Position numbers and translations under genes: made by a program
The notes under the pieces: model-generated
What the model saw: only the letters and a program-made list of their open reading frames with translations
Database searches by the model: none
What the model was told of the DNA's origin: nothing
Source: a virus
Direction: 5' to 3' (one strand)
Virus record (IMG/VR): IMGVR_UViG_3300042525_000250
Span: 1-53,048 of that record
Length of the DNA: 53,048 nt
Shown: piece after piece, positions 15,413 to 51,999 of the stretch
Layout: every line of letters starts with the position of its first letter
How positions within the stretch are numbered: the stretch's first letter is position 1

Positions 15413-15904
15413 ATGGCATACAAAGACCCAGAGAAATATAAAGCATGGCGTGAAGCCAACCGTGAAAAATTAAGAGCACATAGTAAAAAATACCGTGAGG
15501 CTAATCCTGAGAAATTAAAAGCCTACCGTGAAGCTAATTGTGAGAGAGGAAAAGTATACAACAAAGCATACCGTGAGGCTAATCGTGAGAAAGTAAAAGA
15601 GAATCGTAAAACATACTATGTAGCCAACCGTGAGGAAGTAAGAGCAAAGCATAAAGTATATTGTGAAACTAATCGTGAGAAATTAAAAGCGTGTAACAAA
15701 GCATACCGTGAGGTTAGTCGTGAGAAAATAAAAACATACCGTGAAGCATACATTAAGAATCCTATGAATGCTGCACAAATTAGTATATACAAATTAACAG
15801 GCTTGAAGAAAGCTGAAATCCCAACCGAGTTGCTTGAAACACAAGCACTTATTATTAGTATCAACAGAGAGATTAGAAACCATGAAAAATTGCACAGAGC
15901 TTAG
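15413..15904 (+). CDS. Charged tandem-repeat protein
   Basis: 163 residues behind AGGAGGAG. Residues about 10-118 are repeats of a YREANREKxKAYNKA-type unit, mostly 15 residues with two 11-residue versions, likely a long charged helix. The repeat is of the kind found beside HNH or GIY-YIG nuclease domains in phages, but no nuclease domain is present. The C-terminal 45 residues (NAAQISIYKLTGLKKAEIPTEL, then EIRNHEKLHR) look like a small helical domain. It may be a DNA-binding remnant of a homing nuclease or a structural scaffold. Confidence 0.78.
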   Translation: MAYKDPEKYKAWREANREKLRAHSKKYREANPEKLKAYREANCERGKVYNKAYREANREKVKENRKTYYVANREEVRAKHKVYCETNREKLKACNKAYREVSREKIKTYREAYIKNPMNAAQISIYKLTGLKKAEIPTELLETQALIISINREIRNHEKLHRA

Positions 15905-38322: not shown

Positions 38323-38747
38323 ATTGATACTTCCAGTAAGGTACTGCGGGGTTGAAAGTCAAAGCGTCTCCAGAGTCTTATGATAGCAGGTCTTCCATAA
38401 CCTTGAATCATCGTAGCCCCCCGTGCTTTAAATAAATTTTTTAATTGGCTAAAACTATCTTGGGTAGCAATCAACCTACCGCCTACCGCTGTGATAAACG
38501 CAACTCGATGCAGTGGGTAGTTAATATACGAGATAGTTGCAGCGCCTCTCATTACGTTATGCTCATCTACTGCCACAAAAAGCTCCCAATTACCGTTAAC
38601 AAGATAGCTTAGTACATGGTCGTCATTATACGTCATGTTAGGTGAATTCTCACCACTCCCTTCCTGCAAACCAGCCACAATATGCGGCCTCGCTAAAGGC
38701 CACGTCTGTTGAATAAACTCAGTAGGTACTGCGTGCAGGGTTATCAT
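38319..38747 (-). CDS. GNAT-like / gp13-like virion protein
   Basis: 142 residues, close to T7 gp13 in length and place (first small gene before the internal virion proteins). Layout resembles a GNAT acyltransferase: WELFVAVDEHNVMRGAATISY (strands and hairpin), AFITAVGG, then a helix QLKNLFKARGATMIQGYGR and RFDFQPRS. The acetyl-CoA loop (Q/RxxGxG/A) is not evident, so enzymatic activity is doubtful. Both ends overlap neighbours by ATGA. Confidence 0.7.
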   Translation of the reverse strand: MITLHAVPTEFIQQTWPLARPHIVAGLQEGSGENSPNMTYNDDHVLSYLVNGNWELFVAVDEHNVMRGAATISYINYPLHRVAFITAVGGRLIATQDSFSQLKNLFKARGATMIQGYGRPAIIRLWRRFDFQPRSTLLEVSI

Positions 38748-41149
38748 GTTAATGTAAAGGTTTGTGGGGTGCCCTGTGGGGCAGCGGGTACTATAGGCGC
38801 AGGTTTGTTTTGTAGAGCGGCTATACCTGATTGTCCTGCCGCTGCATAGGTTGGGTTAGCGGCAAGTGCTGCATAATATTGTTCAGCGGTTATTCCAGGC
38901 GTGTTTTGTAGCTTCTGTAAATCAACTACTTGTTGAGCGCTAGTAAAAGGCACAGAGGCTGCTTGAGCCTGCTGATTTAAATTAGGAACAATTCCTGTAC
39001 CATAAGCACTAGACGCATCGGTGTTTAAGTTACTTTTAGAAACTACTGAAGGGTCTACAACCCCTGCTACGCCTGAACCTAGTGTCACAGACTGAGGTTG
39101 ATTTGGTGACGTCAACGTAAATTGCTGAGGTTGATTTGGTGACGTCAACGTAAATTGCTGAGGTGTACCTAGTGCTTTTCTCGCCTGCTCAGCCGAACTA
39201 TCTATTGTTACAGGTTGAGGTGTACCTAGTGCTTTTCTCGCCTGCTCAGCCGAACTATCTATTGTTACAGGTTGAGGTGCCCCTAACGGTTGTTGAGTGA
39301 TAGGCGTAGTTACAGGTGCATTTTGTTGAGCGTTTAATGCAGCTAAACCAGACTGCCCAGCAGCTTGTAAATCAGGATAAGCTGTACTATTTGCAAGTTT
39401 TGTATAGTATTCTACTGGCGTTTTTGATGAAGTCTGCGCCTCTTGTAAGTAGGTAGATTTAGCAACTTCGGGCGCAACTGCTGGTAAAGACTTATAAGAC
39501 TCTAATGCTGCTTTACCTGTCGATGCCAAGTCAGAGTATAACGTATTGTTTGCAAGCTTTGTGTAATAGTCAACAGGTGTGTTTGATGAGTTTTGTAAAT
39601 CCTGCACCCATTTCATTTTCCCAGCAGCTAGTTTCTCCGCAGCCAGTTTCTCCGCAGCTAGTTTCTCCGCAGCCAGTTTCTCCGCAGCTAGTTTCTCCGC
39701 AGCCAGTTTCTCCGCAGCCAGTTTACCTGCACTTGTATCCGTAACAATAGGCTCACCTGCTTTAGGCACTACAGGAAGTGTTGTGTTCGTTGTATCAGGC
39801 GCACCTGGTTTAGTTGCTTTCCCTGCTGAGTTAGTAATACTAGGCTGATATATTTTTGATAATGCAGGGGATAAGCTTGTTATTGCATTAGGGTCGTAAG
39901 GCTGACCAGCAGTATTAGCTAATTTTAATAAGTCTTTAGACGTGGGGTTGTTTTCAAACGGTTTTTTGATATTGGTTAAATCAGGCGTTTCAGGCATAGT
40001 TAGCTGATTTGTATAACCCGCCGCGTAAGGATTTTTATACCCTGATAACATCCCGTTTAAGATGTTTGAATAAGGTGATGTAGAGTTAGCAACTAATTTA
40101 CCAGAAGCATCTAATGACGGTGCGCGGTAAACCCCTTTATTAGGGTTGTAAGATTGTGTAAACTCAGTCATTTTATCAGGTTCTATCTCTCCCCCAGTAT
40201 AAGCAAAGTTACCGTTAGCATCTTTAAAACTCCCTTTAGGGAGTAACCCTGTAATCCCATCAGTAGGTGTAGTTGTAGTAGAGGTTTTAGCCCAATCGCC
40301 TGTGGTCGCATCTTTAGTTAACTTAGCTACGTTTGAGTTGTATGAATCTACTAATTTACTAGGGTCATTTAATAAAGCATTGGCGGCTGTTCTATACGTC
40401 AAAGACCCTGTTTTGTTAACTAAGTCTCCATTAGTAGTAGTGATAACCTTATCTACATAAGACTGAATTTTATCGTTAAAAGCTAACTTAGTATCTTCTC
40501 CTCCAGCTATAACTTGTTTAAAGTCGTCTGATGTAAATAAAGGTTTCCCTGATGAGTTTTTTAACCCACCGTACCGAGCTTCTAATGTTGCCGCAGTATC
40601 TTCAGGTTTAACTGCATAGTCGCCCACCGCATTAATATATTGAGTACGTATTGCATCTGGGTCAAATTGGTTAGTAGCTGAACCACTCATAATAGCTTTA
40701 GCTGACGCTGTTTTTTCTGCGCCTGTTAAATTATCACCTAATGATGCCGCGATGCTTTCACCTTGCAACTGCCTAGCTTGTTGTATTTGAGTTAATACCG
40801 GCTGTTCTTTTGCATTAAGACTAGTATCCCCTAAACTACCTTCCCTAACAGCATTCTTAAACGCAACTAAGTTATACGGTTTTTTAGTAACTGGGTTTAT
40901 TAAGTCAGGGTTATAAGATTGCGCCCATGTTCCAGCTGCGTTCAATAAAGCAGTGGCGTCTACAGATTTGTTTGCCAAGGCACTCTTGTACATGGCATAC
41001 ATGTAGTCGGCTTTTTTGTTATATGTAGGCTCGGTTTTTTCCCAGGTAGTTATCCACTTGGTTACCGAAGCTGTAGGTACCCCTGCAAGTAATAAATCAT
41101 TTATAAACTTATTGTCATACTTATTTAATGTGTATGTTTTTGCGGCCAT
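38744..41149 (-). CDS. Structural protein with KLAAE and other tandem repeats
   Basis: 801 residues, start ATG 41149. N-terminal domain TLNKYDNKFINDLLLAGVPTASVTKW and a central Asn/Thr/Gly-rich part. Residues about 475-508 are KLAAE units, from seven 15-bp repeats. Near residues 508-600 are two copies of a (YYTKLANxT) segment. Near 625-660 are doubled TIDSSAEQARKALG and FTLTSPNQPQ segments, from 57-bp and 33-bp DNA repeats. The YY.L..N-type peptides also recur at the C-terminus (YYAALAANPTYA). Probably an extended virion protein; family not recognised. Confidence 0.75.
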   Translation of the reverse strand: MAAKTYTLNKYDNKFINDLLLAGVPTASVTKWITTWEKTEPTYNKKADYMYAMYKSALANKSVDATALLNAAGTWAQSYNPDLINPVTKKPYNLVAFKNAVREGSLGDTSLNAKEQPVLTQIQQARQLQGESIAASLGDNLTGAEKTASAKAIMSGSATNQFDPDAIRTQYINAVGDYAVKPEDTAATLEARYGGLKNSSGKPLFTSDDFKQVIAGGEDTKLAFNDKIQSYVDKVITTTNGDLVNKTGSLTYRTAANALLNDPSKLVDSYNSNVAKLTKDATTGDWAKTSTTTTPTDGITGLLPKGSFKDANGNFAYTGGEIEPDKMTEFTQSYNPNKGVYRAPSLDASGKLVANSTSPYSNILNGMLSGYKNPYAAGYTNQLTMPETPDLTNIKKPFENNPTSKDLLKLANTAGQPYDPNAITSLSPALSKIYQPSITNSAGKATKPGAPDTTNTTLPVVPKAGEPIVTDTSAGKLAAEKLAAEKLAAEKLAAEKLAAEKLAAEKLAAGKMKWVQDLQNSSNTPVDYYTKLANNTLYSDLASTGKAALESYKSLPAVAPEVAKSTYLQEAQTSSKTPVEYYTKLANSTAYPDLQAAGQSGLAALNAQQNAPVTTPITQQPLGAPQPVTIDSSAEQARKALGTPQPVTIDSSAEQARKALGTPQQFTLTSPNQPQQFTLTSPNQPQSVTLGSGVAGVVDPSVVSKSNLNTDASSAYGTGIVPNLNQQAQAASVPFTSAQQVVDLQKLQNTPGITAEQYYAALAANPTYAAAGQSGIAALQNKPAPIVPAAPQGTPQTFTLT
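39161..39274. repeat. 57-bp tandem duplication
   Basis: Two copies starting at 39161 and 39218, beginning AGGTGTACCTAGTGCTTTTC, nearly identical. Just upstream, a 33-bp unit containing TGATTTGGTGACGTCAACG is also doubled (about 39096-39161). All are in frame. Confidence 0.85.
39624..39728. repeat. 15-bp tandem repeat, seven units (KLAAE codons)
   Basis: Units of GCAGCYAGTTTCTCC at 39624, 39639, 39654, 39669, 39684 and 39699, with a variant at 39714. The variable Y alternates T, C, T, C, T, C, then C, so the true duplicated unit is a 30-bp dimer. It encodes KLAAEKLAAE on the minus strand. Confidence 0.92.
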
Positions 41150-46440: not shown

Positions 46441-47082
46441 CTATACAGGTACTCTTCTAACAGCTCTGGCATAGGTAGTATTGGCTTTAACGATGTTGGT
46501 CTGAAGCCCATCGGTGAAGTACTGAACCGATACGCTGTTAGCAGCGGTCTCAGTAGAAGACCAATATGGGCCATAGACAAACGCATTCGTTTCACCAGCT
46601 CTAAAACCAATACCGGCGACTGTTTGCGCAGGAGAACCATTAGTATAATTTGTACTTACAGGCTCTGGAGATACCGCATTCGCGTTTGAACCCGATGAAG
46701 TATTGTTAGCGTCGGTAGTCGGTTTTAAGAAATAATACAGCACTTCTAGCTCGTTTTTAGCAGGTAGATACCAATCACTATATCCGCCAATGGTTAACCC
46801 TTCACAAAACACCGCTGCTTGATATGACGAGCCTAATGCTGCTAATGACGCAGAGTTTGTTGGTCCATTGATAACGGATGTTATTCCTGTTGTTACGCCA
46901 TCTATCCCCCATGATACGCTTGAGTTTTCACCAGATGCTTTAGGGGCAACAATTAGATAATATTGCGTACCAGAAACGTTAATCTTACCAGCGTAAAATC
47001 CACCACCGTAGGCTTGACCTATAGTTGTCGGGCCTGCGGGCCCATAAGTTCCGCCAAGTACTGCTTGCATAATACCCGTCAT
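46441..47082 (-). CDS. DUF1566 (Lcl) C-type-lectin-like protein
   Basis: 213 residues. GYSDWYLPAKNELEVLY and YWSSTETAANSVSVQYF, then YARAVRRV at the end, are diagnostic of DUF1566, a C-type-lectin-like domain used in phage tips and in the variable proteins of some diversity-generating retroelements. Here it is likely a host-recognition protein at the tail fibre end. The C-terminal 40 residues would be the variable part of such a domain; no reverse transcriptase is visible in the window. ATGA overlap with the fibre gene upstream. Confidence 0.85.
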   Translation of the reverse strand: MTGIMQAVLGGTYGPAGPTTIGQAYGGGFYAGKINVSGTQYYLIVAPKASGENSSVSWGIDGVTTGITSVINGPTNSASLAALGSSYQAAVFCEGLTIGGYSDWYLPAKNELEVLYYFLKPTTDANNTSSGSNANAVSPEPVSTNYTNGSPAQTVAGIGFRAGETNAFVYGPYWSSTETAANSVSVQYFTDGLQTNIVKANTTYARAVRRVPV

Positions 47083-48497
47083 GACACATTACCCGACACA
47101 ACGCAAACTGTTGCACTAACAAATAGAATCGTAGCAATACCACGAGTAGCTAATGTGATAGACGTTTTAACTGTGTTTGCCCCCGCAATATAGGCTGTAG
47201 GTGCGCTAGTCGTAATAGTAATATTACCTGTTGTGTTGTTATAGACAGAGATGGCATCACCATTTGCAAACGTAGAAGTTGGCACGACAATAGAGCCGCT
47301 TGTTCCAACACCCACATATTTACCCACATCTCCAGTAACTAAAGTATATGCAGTTGTTTTATCTGAGCCTGTTTGAGGGATATTTTTATACCCAACACCA
47401 TTTGTTCCATCAACCGTACAAGATGACAGCGTACCGCTAGAAGGTGTTCCAAGCGCACCGCCTGTTGAGTATTTACCGTTAAACGTAGACCAATCACTAG
47501 AAGATAATGCACCTCTAGTTGATGCGCTTGCTGTTGGAATATTTAACGTAATGACAGGGGTTGTTGTACTATTTGCAACTGATGATGAAACGTCTGTACC
47601 CGTAGTACCTAATGTTAAAGCCGCAACTGAAGTGACTGTACCGCCAGAAGTGGATGGTGGCTGCCAACTAGGTGCTGAAGTACCGTTAGATGTTAACACG
47701 TAAGTAGCTGTACCAGCAGCAAGCATTGCTGTTGTACCTGAAGCTGTTTGATAGGGTAGTTGCCCTGCTCCGCCCCCTGCTAAGTTGGTAGCTGTTGTCG
47801 CTGTTAACGCATTACCTGTCGTACTTTGATTAAGTGTTGGAAAGTCACCAGCTACTGCAATAGTCAACGCGCCTGTTGATGTTGTGCTTTTTAAAATACC
47901 CGTAGCTAACGCAGAAGTCCCTGCGCTGTAATCTGTACCAGAAGTCGCCGCTGAAATAGCCGTTCCATTCCCTTTAAGAACACCAGAAATACTAGTTGTC
48001 AGCGTTATAGCAGGTGTTGATGTGGGGTTTGATACTGAGCCTGTAAATCCGTTAGCACTAGCAACTGATACTGTCGTTACTGTCCCGTTAGAGGATGGAG
48101 ATACAGCCGTTACGAAGTCAGAACCGTTCCAAACAACCAATGCACTTTTATTAGTAGGAACACTAATACCCGTAGTAGACGCACCTTTAAGCACTACCGC
48201 TGCATCAGATTGGTTAACAACAAAATAGCCTTTACTTCTAGCTGGAGCGATAATATTACGTGATACGCCCGGTGTTCCTGTAGCAATGAGAATTGCACAG
48301 CGAGCCTGATTAGGTACGCCAGAACCCGTATCTGTTAAAGTCCAATCACCTGAAGTAACACTAGCTGTTGCCGTCCCTGCAATCGCATCGTCAAGAAGCT
48401 GTGTAATACTATTATTTACTTCAGTACCCCAAGTACCAGTAAGCTCACCTTGAACTGGAAGGGCTAAACCTAAAAGCGTGGTATAAGCTGTTGTCAT
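47079..48497 (-). CDS. Tail fibre protein
   Basis: 472 residues. Opening MTTAYTTLLGLALPVQGELT, GTWGTEVNNSITQLLDDAI is a frequent start for phage fibres with a shared N-terminal attachment domain. The middle is Thr/Ser/Gly-rich (VTTVSVASANGFTGSVSNPT), repetitive, and ends in a strand-rich tip (SIVVPTSTFANGDAISVYN). It is coupled to the lectin-like gene, so both may form one fibre. Confidence 0.82.
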   Translation of the reverse strand: MTTAYTTLLGLALPVQGELTGTWGTEVNNSITQLLDDAIAGTATASVTSGDWTLTDTGSGVPNQARCAILIATGTPGVSRNIIAPARSKGYFVVNQSDAAVVLKGASTTGISVPTNKSALVVWNGSDFVTAVSPSSNGTVTTVSVASANGFTGSVSNPTSTPAITLTTSISGVLKGNGTAISAATSGTDYSAGTSALATGILKSTTSTGALTIAVAGDFPTLNQSTTGNALTATTATNLAGGGAGQLPYQTASGTTAMLAAGTATYVLTSNGTSAPSWQPPSTSGGTVTSVAALTLGTTGTDVSSSVANSTTTPVITLNIPTASASTRGALSSSDWSTFNGKYSTGGALGTPSSGTLSSCTVDGTNGVGYKNIPQTGSDKTTAYTLVTGDVGKYVGVGTSGSIVVPTSTFANGDAISVYNNTTGNITITTSAPTAYIAGANTVKTSITLATRGIATILFVSATVCVVSGNVS

Positions 48498-48501
48498 GTT
48501 T

Positions 48502-49593
48502 TTAACCTGTTGTGTTAATTGAACCCCAGTTAGGGGTTTGGGCTGTATCTATGGTGCCCCAGTTAGCAGTTTGTATGGTGGATATATTACCCCAATTTGC
48601 AGTCTGTGTATCATCAATTTGTTCCCATAAATTACGCCATGTAACAACATCAACCGCATAAACTACTTCGTTTATAACAACTGAGAATTGACCTCCGCCA
48701 ACCGCAAAAGATACTGCATTACCTGCTTCTACTAATGAGCATATAAGCGTTGCAATGTTTGACTGTTCTGCTAAAGCAGATAAGCTTTCTGACACATCCC
48801 CAACCAACGTATAAATAGCTAATTGAGCATCAGAGCTTGATACAGACTCAGTTAAGTCTGTAGGTATAGACAGCGATAAAGTTTGCGCGTCTGAAGTGGA
48901 TACGCTTTCTGTTAAATCCGCTAACCAAGGAATAGACGCTGTTTGTTCATCAGTTGCTACAGCTAACTCAGATAAAGAGACTAGTAAAGATGCGGTATTA
49001 CTTATAGTGTCTAGAGCCGTAGCTGTTTCAGATACAGCACATAAGCCCGTTAATACTGATAATTGAGAATCCGTTGACGTTAAGGTTTCAGTTAAAGACG
49101 CGGCTAGGGATATTAAATACGCTTGTGTGTCAGTAGCGGTTACTGGTTCAGTTAAATCTGTTGATACTTCTAAGCTATTTACAACTACATCACTTGCGGC
49201 ACCTGATTCTGTTATCTCTAAACTATAACCTAGTGTGTAGGTCTGTGCATCTAATGCAGTAAGTGTTTCAAATAAATCAGCAGTAATATCACTACCATAA
49301 ACTTGCTCATCTACTGCAGTTAGCGTTTCGAGTACAGCTACAATTAGTGATGCTGTAGCTGTTTGTGTGTCAGTAGCGGTAAGTGTTTCAGAAACATCTA
49401 CATTTGAGGTTATCCCTACTAGCTGTATATCTGTTGCACTTACTGATTCTGTAAGCAATGCTGACGCATCTAGAGATACAGTCTGACCATCACTTGCTGT
49501 TAGCGTTTCTGTTAAGTCAACAGAAATACTCCCACTACTTACAATAGGTAGCGAAGCAAACGGAGTATCAGCAAATGCAGAGAAGCCAAACAT
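48502..49593 (-). CDS. Fibrous protein of thirteen exact 20-residue repeats
   Basis: 363 residues. From about residue 27 there are 13 consecutive units of exactly 20 residues, no insertions, of the form xEtltatDxQxxxxsxxxxl (for example TETLTASDGQTVSLDASALL). The Glu, Asp and Gln positions repeat most strictly. The C-terminal part before the end has three 11-residue units of QTANWGxIxTx. A regular 20-residue period fits a beta-solenoid or stacked-strand fibre. Location among fibre genes supports a tail-fibre role. Starts ATG 49593. Confidence 0.8.
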   Translation of the reverse strand: MFGFSAFADTPFASLPIVSSGSISVDLTETLTASDGQTVSLDASALLTESVSATDIQLVGITSNVDVSETLTATDTQTATASLIVAVLETLTAVDEQVYGSDITADLFETLTALDAQTYTLGYSLEITESGAASDVVVNSLEVSTDLTEPVTATDTQAYLISLAASLTETLTSTDSQLSVLTGLCAVSETATALDTISNTASLLVSLSELAVATDEQTASIPWLADLTESVSTSDAQTLSLSIPTDLTESVSSSDAQLAIYTLVGDVSESLSALAEQSNIATLICSLVEAGNAVSFAVGGGQFSVVINEVVYAVDVVTWRNLWEQIDDTQTANWGNISTIQTANWGTIDTAQTPNWGSINTTG

Positions 49594-49601
49594 AGTTTAT
49601 T

Positions 49602-49994
49602 TTATGCAGCAGATTGAGCATTAACAATCACTAAAGCCTCAGCAACTAAAGCATCTAGTTGGTCAGCAGGGATTTGAGCTTTTAGCGCGTTAAGCACTTG
49701 TTTAGCTTTATTTTGTTCAATAGCTTCTGTGCGAATTAAATATCTAATACGGTCACGATATTGATAATCAGCCACTACTTGTACAGTTTCCAAAGGCACA
49801 TCAAAAGGTAATTCCTCTGTTTTTGTACTCATGTATTGCAAGATTTCAGCAGGAGCATCACCTTGTGGCATAGCTGCAAGCATAGCTGTGTAGTTATCAA
49901 TGTTGATTTGGTATTGATGAACTTCTCTTTCTCTATGTATTACGTTAAGAGCTAGAGTGTTGATTGTGTCTTGTGGGTTGATTGTCATGTACAT
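49602..49994 (-). CDS. Helical hypothetical protein (late)
   Basis: 130 residues from ATG 49994, 9 nt after AGG; an upstream start at 50030 overlaps the propeller gene and lacks a site. Helical with IHREREVHQYQINIDNYTAMLAAM, YRDRIRYLIRTEAIEQNKAKQVLNALKAQIP, Ala-rich end. Looks like a tail-fibre chaperone or scaffold. Unrecognised. Confidence 0.72.
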   Translation of the reverse strand: MYMTINPQDTINTLALNVIHREREVHQYQINIDNYTAMLAAMPQGDAPAEILQYMSTKTEELPFDVPLETVQVVADYQYRDRIRYLIRTEAIEQNKAKQVLNALKAQIPADQLDALVAEALVIVNAQSAA

Positions 49995-50007
49995 TTTTGT
50001 TTTCCTA

Positions 50008-51051
50008 TTAATTACTAAAGGTACTACCATTAGCTACGTTAGATGGTAAAGTTGACGGGTCAGCATATTTTGTACCAAAACCACTACTCCAAGGATATGC
50101 AGTTACATAAGGTGTTGTAGAATGCGCAACAATAATAGCATCACTAGCTGATGAAAATGAAACATCATTTCCAACACCGGCAGGTAGAGTTGACGGGTTA
50201 GCATATTTTGTACCAAAACCACTACTCCAAGGATATGCAGTTACATAAGGTGTTGTAAGCTGTGCAACAGCAAATAATGTTCCCGCGGCATTAAAATTTG
50301 TTTTTCTCCCATCACCAGTAGGTAAAGTTGACGGGTTAGCATATTTTGTACCAAAACCACTACTCCAAGGATATGCAGTTACATAAGGTGTTGTAGAATG
50401 ACTGATAACTATACTACCGTCTAAATTGTTAATAGTTACACCACGGCTATTACCAGTAGGTAGAGTTGACGGGTTAGCATATTTTGTACCAAAACCACTA
50501 CTCCAAGGATATGCAGTTACATAAGGTGTTGTAGAATGCGCATAGGCTATCACTGATGTAGAAGCATTAAAAGCGGTTGCATAAACAAGGCCTGTTGGTG
50601 CTGTTACTGGGGCAGTATATTTAGTTCCTTGCCCTGTACCAGCAACCCATGGAAATACTGCTACATAAGGTGATGTTGACCCACACAAACTTAATAAATT
50701 ACCGCCGTTTGAAAAAGCGCATCCCCCATTCCCACTCCCACCTATACTGGGGGATGTGTATTTAGTACCATACCCACTGGATGACCACGGGTAGATTGCA
50801 ACCCATGTACTATTACCGTCACTAATAGCTAGTGTATTATTTGATTTGGTAAAAGATAGACCAAATCCAGATGTACTTGGCAGTAATGCTGGACCAGCAA
50901 ATGCGCTGTTAAATCCTTTGTTCCAGTTATACGTTGTTACAAAGGGTGTTACCGACCTAGCGACTGCTACATATGATTTTTGTAAGTATTGGTTAGATGA
51001 TAAACCCATACCTAATGCGTTTAATGTACCAAATGTTGATATTAACGGCAT
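50008..51051 (-). CDS. Seven-bladed beta-propeller, probable receptor-binding protein
   Basis: 347 residues. Seven repeats of the strand phrase (T)PYVTAYPW, from VTPFVTTYNW to the last HSTTPYVTAYPW, count seven blades. The last four blades are 46 residues each and half of each (HSTTPYVTAYPWSSGFGTKY) is identical or nearly so. The other half (for example TGNSRGVTINNLDGSIVIS) differs freely. Propellers of this kind bind surface sugars or proteins. Position among fibre genes and contrast of fixed core with variable edges point to host recognition. Confidence 0.82.
   Translation of the reverse strand: MPLISTFGTLNALGMGLSSNQYLQKSYVAVARSVTPFVTTYNWNKGFNSAFAGPALLPSTSGFGLSFTKSNNTLAISDGNSTWVAIYPWSSSGYGTKYTSPSIGGSGNGGCAFSNGGNLLSLCGSTSPYVAVFPWVAGTGQGTKYTAPVTAPTGLVYATAFNASTSVIAYAHSTTPYVTAYPWSSGFGTKYANPSTLPTGNSRGVTINNLDGSIVISHSTTPYVTAYPWSSGFGTKYANPSTLPTGDGRKTNFNAAGTLFAVAQLTTPYVTAYPWSSGFGTKYANPSTLPAGVGNDVSFSSASDAIIVAHSTTPYVTAYPWSSGFGTKYADPSTLPSNVANGSTFSN
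50051..50533. repeat. 69-bp near-identical segments at exact 138-bp period, four copies
   Basis: Copies begin at 50051, 50189, 50327 and 50465, each opening GTTGACGGGTTAGCATATTT (the first has C for T at base 11) and ending GGTGTTGTA. The intervening 69 bp of each period differ. They encode four blades of the propeller. Confidence 0.95.
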
Positions 51052-51060
51052 AAATAAACC

Positions 51061-51999
51061 TTAAACAAACTTACTAACAGCAGCTAAAACTGTAAACGTA
51101 GCCGCGCCTGTTTTTATGACCGCGTAAGTATAAACATCAACTGCACTAACATCCCCTGTTGTTGGTGCACCCCCTTGCCATTTAGTTGTTACGCCGGTCA
51201 CTGTGCCATCTACTTGTACTACGCTATTATAAAATGCAGTAGTTCCATTAGTTACCATATGAGTCACTGTAATTGTTTGTCCTACAGCCATTGCAGTATT
51301 TAGAGTAGTTCCTGCTGAATGCCTTATGTTTATAGTCCAGTTAGCTGACGCATTACTTGTGTAATATAAAACTGACTGCGAGCTTGTGTAATAAGCAATC
51401 GTTCCAGTAGCCGCAGTAGCAGACACCGTAGTGGTTTCAGCAGCATTAGTTAAGATAGCAGCTAATGTAGTCGATGTTCCACTAAAAGTCTGTGTGCCTG
51501 TAAAAGTATTAGCTACATCCCATACTGGGATTTTAGCACCAGCTAAAGTCGTTGCTCCAGTCCCTCCAGAACCAATTGCTAAAGTAGCAGACAGCCCCGC
51601 AGCCGTCCCCGTTGTGTTTTGGTTAAGCGTTGGGAACGTACAATTTGTTAAAGTACCACTAGAAGGTGTGCCTAAAGGACCACCAGTATATAAAGCTCTT
51701 TCAGCAGGGTAGGTAACAAACACATCCTTAGTACCCGCAGGGAACGTAACTAAACTACCAGCGTTACTGGAAGCTAACACCGTATCTCGACTTAAGGTAT
51801 TCCCAATAGTTGTATAAGTACCAATCCCTACTTCCCAATTAGCGCCAGTTTGGTCTGCTATGGTGTAATAAGTCGTGTTTGCATCACCTACTGCTGAGGA
51901 GAATGTCTGATACCCTGTAGCAGCACCAGCTAAAGTAATAGCGGTAGTGCCTGTAGACGTAGTCGTTTCCTTAACTCTATCCGCTAAAACTAAAGCCAT
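51061..51999 (-). CDS. Tail fibre/tip protein
   Basis: 312 residues. Opening MALVLADRVKETTTSTGTTA, then YQTFSSAVGDANTTYYTIAD and GTKDVFVTYPAERAL, is a common N-terminal part of phage fibres. A central GGTGATTLAGAKIP and strand-rich end (VTGVTTKWQGGAPTTGDVSA) suggest a C-terminal trimeric domain. It resembles the 472-residue fibre only in composition, plus the phrase ASLPTLNQNTTG-like TFPTLNQNTTGTAAGL. Start ATG at 51999. Confidence 0.8.
   Translation of the reverse strand: MALVLADRVKETTTSTGTTAITLAGAATGYQTFSSAVGDANTTYYTIADQTGANWEVGIGTYTTIGNTLSRDTVLASSNAGSLVTFPAGTKDVFVTYPAERALYTGGPLGTPSSGTLTNCTFPTLNQNTTGTAAGLSATLAIGSGGTGATTLAGAKIPVWDVANTFTGTQTFSGTSTTLAAILTNAAETTTVSATAATGTIAYYTSSQSVLYYTSNASANWTINIRHSAGTTLNTAMAVGQTITVTHMVTNGTTAFYNSVVQVDGTVTGVTTKWQGGAPTTGDVSAVDVYTYAVIKTGAATFTVLAAVSKFV

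Follow-up and report, generated by a model that had tools for sequence, protein, structure and literature searches.

Phages must continually alter the protein with which they grip their hosts. Dedicated systems that employ reverse transcription or DNA inversion are known, and otherwise the change comes mostly from point mutation and mosaic exchange. The receptor-binding protein of Staphylococcus phage phi11 includes a propeller. The locus described here most resembles the HNWD proteins of Podospora anserina in its logic, and recently amplified propellers in its protein. In the HNWD/NWD family (het-d, het-e and het-r), WD40 repeats set specificity and evolve in concert, recombination gives rise to new specificities, and paired codons, 7/9 and 25/27, are under diversifying selection (PMC1805685, PMC2873952). 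They are NACHT-domain NLR proteins that serve allorecognition in fungi, and their repeat number is highly variable, spanning at least 2 to 15.

WRAP and other recently amplified propellers (PMC9218822; PDB 7bid, 7bie and 2ymu) provide the nearest solved structures; the main text of Pereira and Lupas (2022; PMC9218822) mentions neither phage nor gene conversion. According to the report on Alteromonas phages A5 and V22, a host-recognition gene and its small cognate partner are exchanged between otherwise different phages (PMC10579305). The paper on the host-recognition device of phi11 describes a beta-propeller (PMC4901313); this is a different protein in a different type of phage from ours, and the likeness is one of description rather than of compared sequences.

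The window, by which we mean the whole stretch of 53,048 bases that was analysed, is a phage record encoding a portal, a terminase, a DNA polymerase and an endolysin. The gene of interest, at 50008..51051 (-), has an intact, open reading frame for a protein of 347 amino acids. An AlphaFold2 model of this protein, built from a 33-sequence alignment (pLDDT 86.9, pTM 0.85), consists of repeating strands preceded by an unstructured leader (residues 1-22, 50986..51051 (-), pLDDT<50), a putative docking peptide. On the model, the protein has the predicted features of a WD40-family seven-bladed beta-propeller, with DSSP assigning just three strands to most blades. The modelled strand at residues 340-345, in the C-terminal piece (residues 337-347, 50011..50043 (-)), provides the first strand that blade 1 lacks, which supports the proposal in the initial annotation that seven blades are closed by the C-terminus. 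Each core described below corresponds to strands C and D of the model, and each variable half to the D-A loop, strands A and B and the start of the B-C loop.

Among solved structures, the WRAP propellers and 2ymu lie nearest to the protein in both sequence profile and fold: sequence profiles match WD-40 chains (2ymu at 9.8e-18), the fold matches 7bid and 2ymu, and BFVD also gives fold matches. Searches of Pfam and PHROG for a name for the protein returned only sub-threshold matches or matches of unknown function; Pfam WD40 or Beta-prop matches occur in some relatives and not in the window's protein, and databases list phage members as 'WD40/YVTN repeat-like' proteins without a function. Among named phages, the best isolates reach 27%, which is too distant to indicate a host. 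Relatives L084-L098 come from bacterial and archaeal metagenome bins and, for L093, from an isolate-like record of Pararhodobacter sp. CCB-MM2; they may be prophages or contaminants.

From each blade to the next, the W-to-W spacing runs 46, 46, 48, 46, 46 and 46 residues, that is, 138 bp with a single step of 144 bp. The exact 138-bp period given in the initial annotation therefore holds between the four similar blades and breaks down over the full ring. Its description of those four blades was accurate: their first 69 bp of core, starting 138 bp apart, differ by a single mismatch, an A to G change in the last blade's copy only. Over 71 bp, the four copies start at gene nucleotides 520, 658, 796 and 934, with 0, 1, 0 and 2 mismatches, respectively; the positions at which single copies depart are 58 of the core (A/G) and 70 (C/T). 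Tandem Repeats Finder scores the array at 527 for period 138 and 726 for period 276, far above chance. We delimited the homogenised cores at 75 bp each: blade 4 (residues 174-198, 50458..50532 (-)) and blade 6 (residues 266-290, 50182..50256 (-)) are identical, blade 5 (residues 220-244, 50320..50394 (-)) differs from both at one position, and blade 7 (residues 312-336, 50044..50118 (-)) differs from the other three at two to three. Between them lie variable halves, or edges, after core 4 (residues 199-219, 50395..50457 (-)), core 5 (residues 245-265, 50257..50319 (-)) and core 6 (residues 291-311, 50119..50181 (-)). That these alternating halves are unlike, as first noted, is borne out by differences at 56-64% of positions over stretches of 63-69 bp between blades 4-7.

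Blades 1-3 have only diverged versions of this core. Their C-D halves (residues 34-58, 50878..50952 (-); residues 81-105, 50737..50811 (-); and residues 126-152, 50596..50676 (-)) are diverged, with core p-distances of 0.48-0.63 among them. The window's propeller is thus unlike WRAP, in which blades are near-identical over their full length and more than 60% alike in pairwise comparison: here only blades 4-7 are alike, and in the C-D half only, while the other half of each is old (edges about 0.58 per site apart) and blades 1-3 are diverged. Relatives L034, L100, L101 and L102, in contrast, are propellers of near-identical blades, like WRAP. Elsewhere in the window, perfect or near-perfect tandem repeats with units of 33, 57 and 15 bp occur at 39092-39279 and 39624-39724, within an 801-aa gene (38744-41149(-)), and a small early-region gene at 15413-15904(+) contains degenerate 45-bp repeats (YREANREK...).

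A check on the history of the cores is provided by L002, whose propeller is the nearest relative of the window's at 79% amino-acid identity; this comparison covers one relative, four blades and 75 bp. Considering only core codons of blades 4-7 that encode the same amino acid, 7 of 147 (5%) differ between blades within the window, as against 32 of 91 (35%) when each blade is set beside its L002 equivalent and 101 of 275 across blades. In other words, no core is nearer to its own L002 counterpart than to the other L002 cores. The edges give the opposite picture, with a p-distance of 0.20 to the L002 counterpart (0.14-0.25) and approximately 0.58 between blades within one gene, and for the control blades 1-3 the two values are 0.10 and 0.54. 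Tree tests reached the same result in both directions: a tree of blade-by-blade orthology is rejected for the cores (p-AU 0.0019), and its opposite is rejected for the edges (p-AU 3.6e-66). The four L002 cores have differences from the window in common, among them a GCT codon at position 7 and a TAC codon for the Tyr that follows Lys. From the divergence of cores and edges, together with the tree tests, we conclude that the four blades are old, that the edges have not moved, and that homogenisation of the cores postdates the split from L002. The simplest cause of this homogeneity would be conversion in tracts of about 75 bp, and the gene conversion between cores suggested in the initial annotation is supported by both the synonymous counts and the AU tests. 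The accompanying suggestion, that recombination reshuffles the variable edges, fared differently. In the window's gene, the edges are closest to their positional counterparts in L002, and this one-to-one, same-order orthology rules out reshuffling as the origin of the pattern; it does fit some of the relatives. As in the HNWD proteins, then, repeats evolve in concert, here in the core half of blades 4-7 only.

Similar cores could also have arisen if blades 4-7 were new whole-blade copies, produced by recent tandem amplification, whose edges then diverged fast. Repetitive propellers usually originate in this way (Pereira and Lupas 2022, PMC9218822), and recent amplification is consistent with L034, L100, L101 and L102, whose edges are near-identical too. 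In the window, however, each edge has an orthologue in place in L002, indicating that the four blades predate the split and that the cores are younger, and we regard amplification as quite improbable for this gene. Purifying selection at the protein level might alone have kept the cores alike, with no conversion, and the core motif SPYVTAYPWSSGFGTKYANPATLP is indeed conserved throughout the propeller family; this explanation is contradicted by the synonymous sites, which are near-identical within the window and not between the window and L002, and we give it very little credence. A further concern is that merged short reads from the repeats created false core identity or false blade counts. 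All of the close relatives are metagenome contigs, where assembly can go wrong in near-identical repeats; the repeat units, at about 138 bp, are near read length, and identity between units extends up to about 130 bp (L102 blades 1-2). Against this, the identical stretches in the window are only about 75 bp long and bounded by unique edges, copy-specific mismatches persist, and the replacements described below for L044/L045 and for the window and L099 involve clearly different sequence with no collapsed repeats. An assembly artefact is accordingly, in our judgment, a slim prospect.

Judged from these contigs, the strongest variation is replacement of the whole propeller at a conserved slot, which lies outside the model of the initial annotation. 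For example, the flanks of L099 are about 84-98% identical to those of the window (97, 90, 94 and 82% for the proteins of the flanking genes), yet its propeller is a different one, which aligns only partly, at 46%. Identity is lost inside the leader (at about 51000) and returns at the ATG of the partner gene (at about 49990). The leader pattern MPLIS..G..NA.G is kept in L002, L099, L101, L102 and L111 despite their differing propellers, and L100, L101 and L111 likewise have window-like neighbours beside other propellers. What L002 and the window share is confined to the propeller, its partner and the end of the gene upstream.

The slot is bounded on both sides by conserved sequence. Downstream lies the partner gene, 49602..50030 (-), of 142 aa as called and with its conserved start at the ATG near 49990, which is 91-96% identical in L002, L099 and L100 beside different propellers; by its position it is probably a fibre chaperone-like partner, and a small gene resembling it also follows the propeller of L044. 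Upstream lies a gene of 312 aa (51061..51999 (-), phrog_5906), the C-terminal part of which forms the conserved left flank: its protein is 90% identical in L099 and 86% in L111, while L002 has only the C-terminal part. The propeller gene sits between these two, upstream of an M15 endolysin and a virion structural protein. A location in the tail module, combined with module-like variation between related phages, is what would be expected of a receptor-binding protein, and at the level of sequence both are present. Unlike the Alteromonas phage fibres, here the propeller alone often changes while the partner stays, and the breakpoints fall at the borders of the fold.

The same module encodes a second possible surface protein at 46441-47082(-), which has a match to Lcl_C (Pfam, 1.4e-9) and is conserved, at 75-77%, in L101 and L111. 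The repeat-rich genes adjoining the propeller, at 47079-48497 and 48502-49593(-), also look mosaic, and identity between the window and L099 falls to 26-60% inside 47079-48497. Ahead of a similar partner gene, L103-L108 and L110 on the one hand and L109 and L114 on the other carry either a protein lengthened by an N-terminal extension ahead of divergent blades or one in which no blades are detectable. L018:3058-7017 apparently holds three tandem propeller genes on one contig, a possible local store of blades.

Replacement also extends to single rings within longer propellers. Aligned over their length, L044 and L045 are 100% identical for most of the first ring, 48-76% in the second and 91-100% downstream; blade by blade, blades 1-7 are 91-100% identical and blades 8-14 are 54-73%. 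The pattern recurs in L016 and L026. Of 126 locus pairs in which each flank reaches 80% identity, 32 have propellers below 90%, and 11 of these 32 are below 70%; these are non-independent comparisons, one of them between tandem copies on a single contig. The pairs with propellers above 90% are nearly all clonal records.

Both blade number and edges vary among the relatives, where invariance would have spoken against the mechanism first proposed for this gene. Counted over complete distinct genes, blades number 7 in 66 genes, 14 in 35 and 21 in 4; the other 18 genes have different counts, several of which reflect missed diverged blades (L079, L099). The predominance of 7, 14 or 21 blades differs from the widely variable repeat number of HNWD, as do the tail-module location of the phage gene and the exchange of whole rings between phages. 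On inspection, the assemblies show 6 blades in L057/L058, L102 and L247 and 8 in L100. A strict rule of multiples of seven is weakened by these alleles, which occupy the same slot as seven-bladed ones and may themselves be assembly errors; for L100 and L102 the long near-identical stretches are the reason for thinking so. In the model of the 14-bladed L044, there are two separate sets of blades, each with a strand B first and a strand A last; the joint at residues 343-346 is of low confidence, and with a pTM of 0.61 the placement of one ring against the other is not given.

Recombination between blades is visible in several relatives. The blades of L100 and L102 resemble fresh amplifications with mixed edges; in L100, edge pieces are common to blades 1 and 4, 2 and 3, and 5 and 7 in differing combinations, and blades with a mosaic appearance occur in L100, L057 and L034. 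We measured this with a codon-level compatibility test, in which recombination appears as nearby codons being more compatible than distant ones. At p<0.05, 33 of 122 genes rejected the null of no recombination, where about 6 are expected, and 22 did so at p<0.01. For the window's own gene, with 8 informative codons, the null was kept (p 0.42). A nucleotide-level form of the test, positive in 35 of 55 genes, was set aside, as it is inflated by sites that share a codon; taken codon by codon, the test gave 14 of 54 and then the figure above.

Selection on the loops was assessed from the blades of the relatives. Over 1,344 blades from 141 genes, the most variable alignment columns are 31 (3.43 bits) and 29 (3.29 bits), which flank the better conserved column 30. 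At columns 29, 31 and 47, pN/pS is 1.56, 1.88 and 1.38, with all bootstrap intervals above 1, while most remaining columns are well below 1; these are ratios, uncorrected for multiple hits, for paralogous blades of 19 recently amplified relatives, the window's gene not among them. The 19 genes were chosen for low synonymous divergence between blades, pN was set against the pS of the gene, and the result at the three columns survives leaving out any one gene. By the strands of the model, columns 29-31 are the entry to strand A, in the D-A loop, and column 47 is directly past strand B, in the B-C loop. The D-A and B-C loops of a propeller lie on one common face. In the window the corresponding residues are 201, 203 and 219 after core 4, 247 and 249 (columns 29 and 31) after core 5, and 293, 295 and 311 after core 6, and we infer that diversifying selection at the three columns extends to this gene. 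The parallel with HNWD holds here as well: few codons per repeat are under diversifying selection in the 19 relatives, including a pair around a conserved codon (29/31 around 30). The parallel does not extend to the type of protein, which in HNWD is a NACHT/STAND protein of fungi and here is the product of a 347-aa phage gene with no other Pfam domain.

Phage receptor-binding proteins are known targets of retroelements (tentaclins, PMC10743442), and a diversity-generating retroelement or a site-specific invertase might likewise alter this gene. Searches for a reverse transcriptase (RVT_1) and for a serine recombinase (Resolvase) found no match in the window or in the records of 11 relatives, some of them short fragments and many perhaps incomplete; control genomes were positive for RVT_1. 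Around the gene, a search for inverted or flanking direct repeats that could serve as exchange sites found only weak inverted repeats (16-22 nt, 73-81%), strong ones being absent, and we consider a dedicated element of either kind extremely improbable. The phage does encode a PD-(D/E)XK nuclease, a SNF2-type helicase and a Hjc-like resolvase, which could serve recombination. It is also conceivable, and to us unlikely rather than implausible, that the propeller is a structural cap or a tail enzyme whose variability comes from drift or hitch-hiking, since propellers have many roles and the family searches yield no function. For an internal part, replacement limited to the propeller gene between conserved neighbours is hard to explain, and an excess of amino-acid change at just three loop columns on one face also argues against this explanation.

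Our preferred reading, to which we assign a probability of about two in three, is that the gene encodes a receptor-contacting WD40 ring diversified by retroelement-free recombination at three scales. In a podovirus-like phage, the seven-bladed ring would most likely serve as the head that contacts the receptor, with the conserved leader for its attachment and the conserved downstream partner in support, two elements that would make ring exchange workable. At the largest scale, whole propellers are swapped between phages through the conserved flanks, as the comparisons between loci show. Within one gene, comparison shows that conversion homogenises half-blades, such as the 75-bp cores of the window, and some relatives carry newly amplified blades. 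At the finest scale, amino-acid change is favoured at columns 29, 31 and 47, on one face, a statistical result in the recently amplified relatives that presumably applies to the window, and the loop face may bind a glycan or a protein of the host. Unequal crossovers between repeats would arise and mostly be lost because the ring needs seven blades; the survivors would be conversion, which leaves the count unchanged, whole-ring exchange, and whole-ring duplication to 14 or 21 blades. Under the same reading, the roles as a binding head and in host-range switching named in the initial annotation would fall to the propeller.

More tentatively, at somewhat less than even odds in our estimation, the family may constitute a retroelement-free system for varying recognition in phages. 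In such a system, conversion would keep the framework halves recombinogenic, selection would act on the loops, rings would be exchanged at the slot, and closure would filter blade numbers to 7, 14 or 21, making it a phage counterpart of the fungal HNWD proteins present in many environmental phages. As far as the literature shows, the combination in one phage family of half-blade concerted evolution, full-ring exchange at a fixed slot and loop selection, as these appear from sequence comparison, would be new.

The repeat fold itself seems to be the source of variation: repeats recombine, the ring keeps its count, and a few loop residues are selected. This offers a route by which a putative host-binding protein could be varied without a retroelement. 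If the ring is the receptor-binding head, the predicted contact residues (201, 203, 219, 247, 249, 293, 295 and so on) would be a direct experimental target, and blade counts from long reads would make the rate of change measurable.
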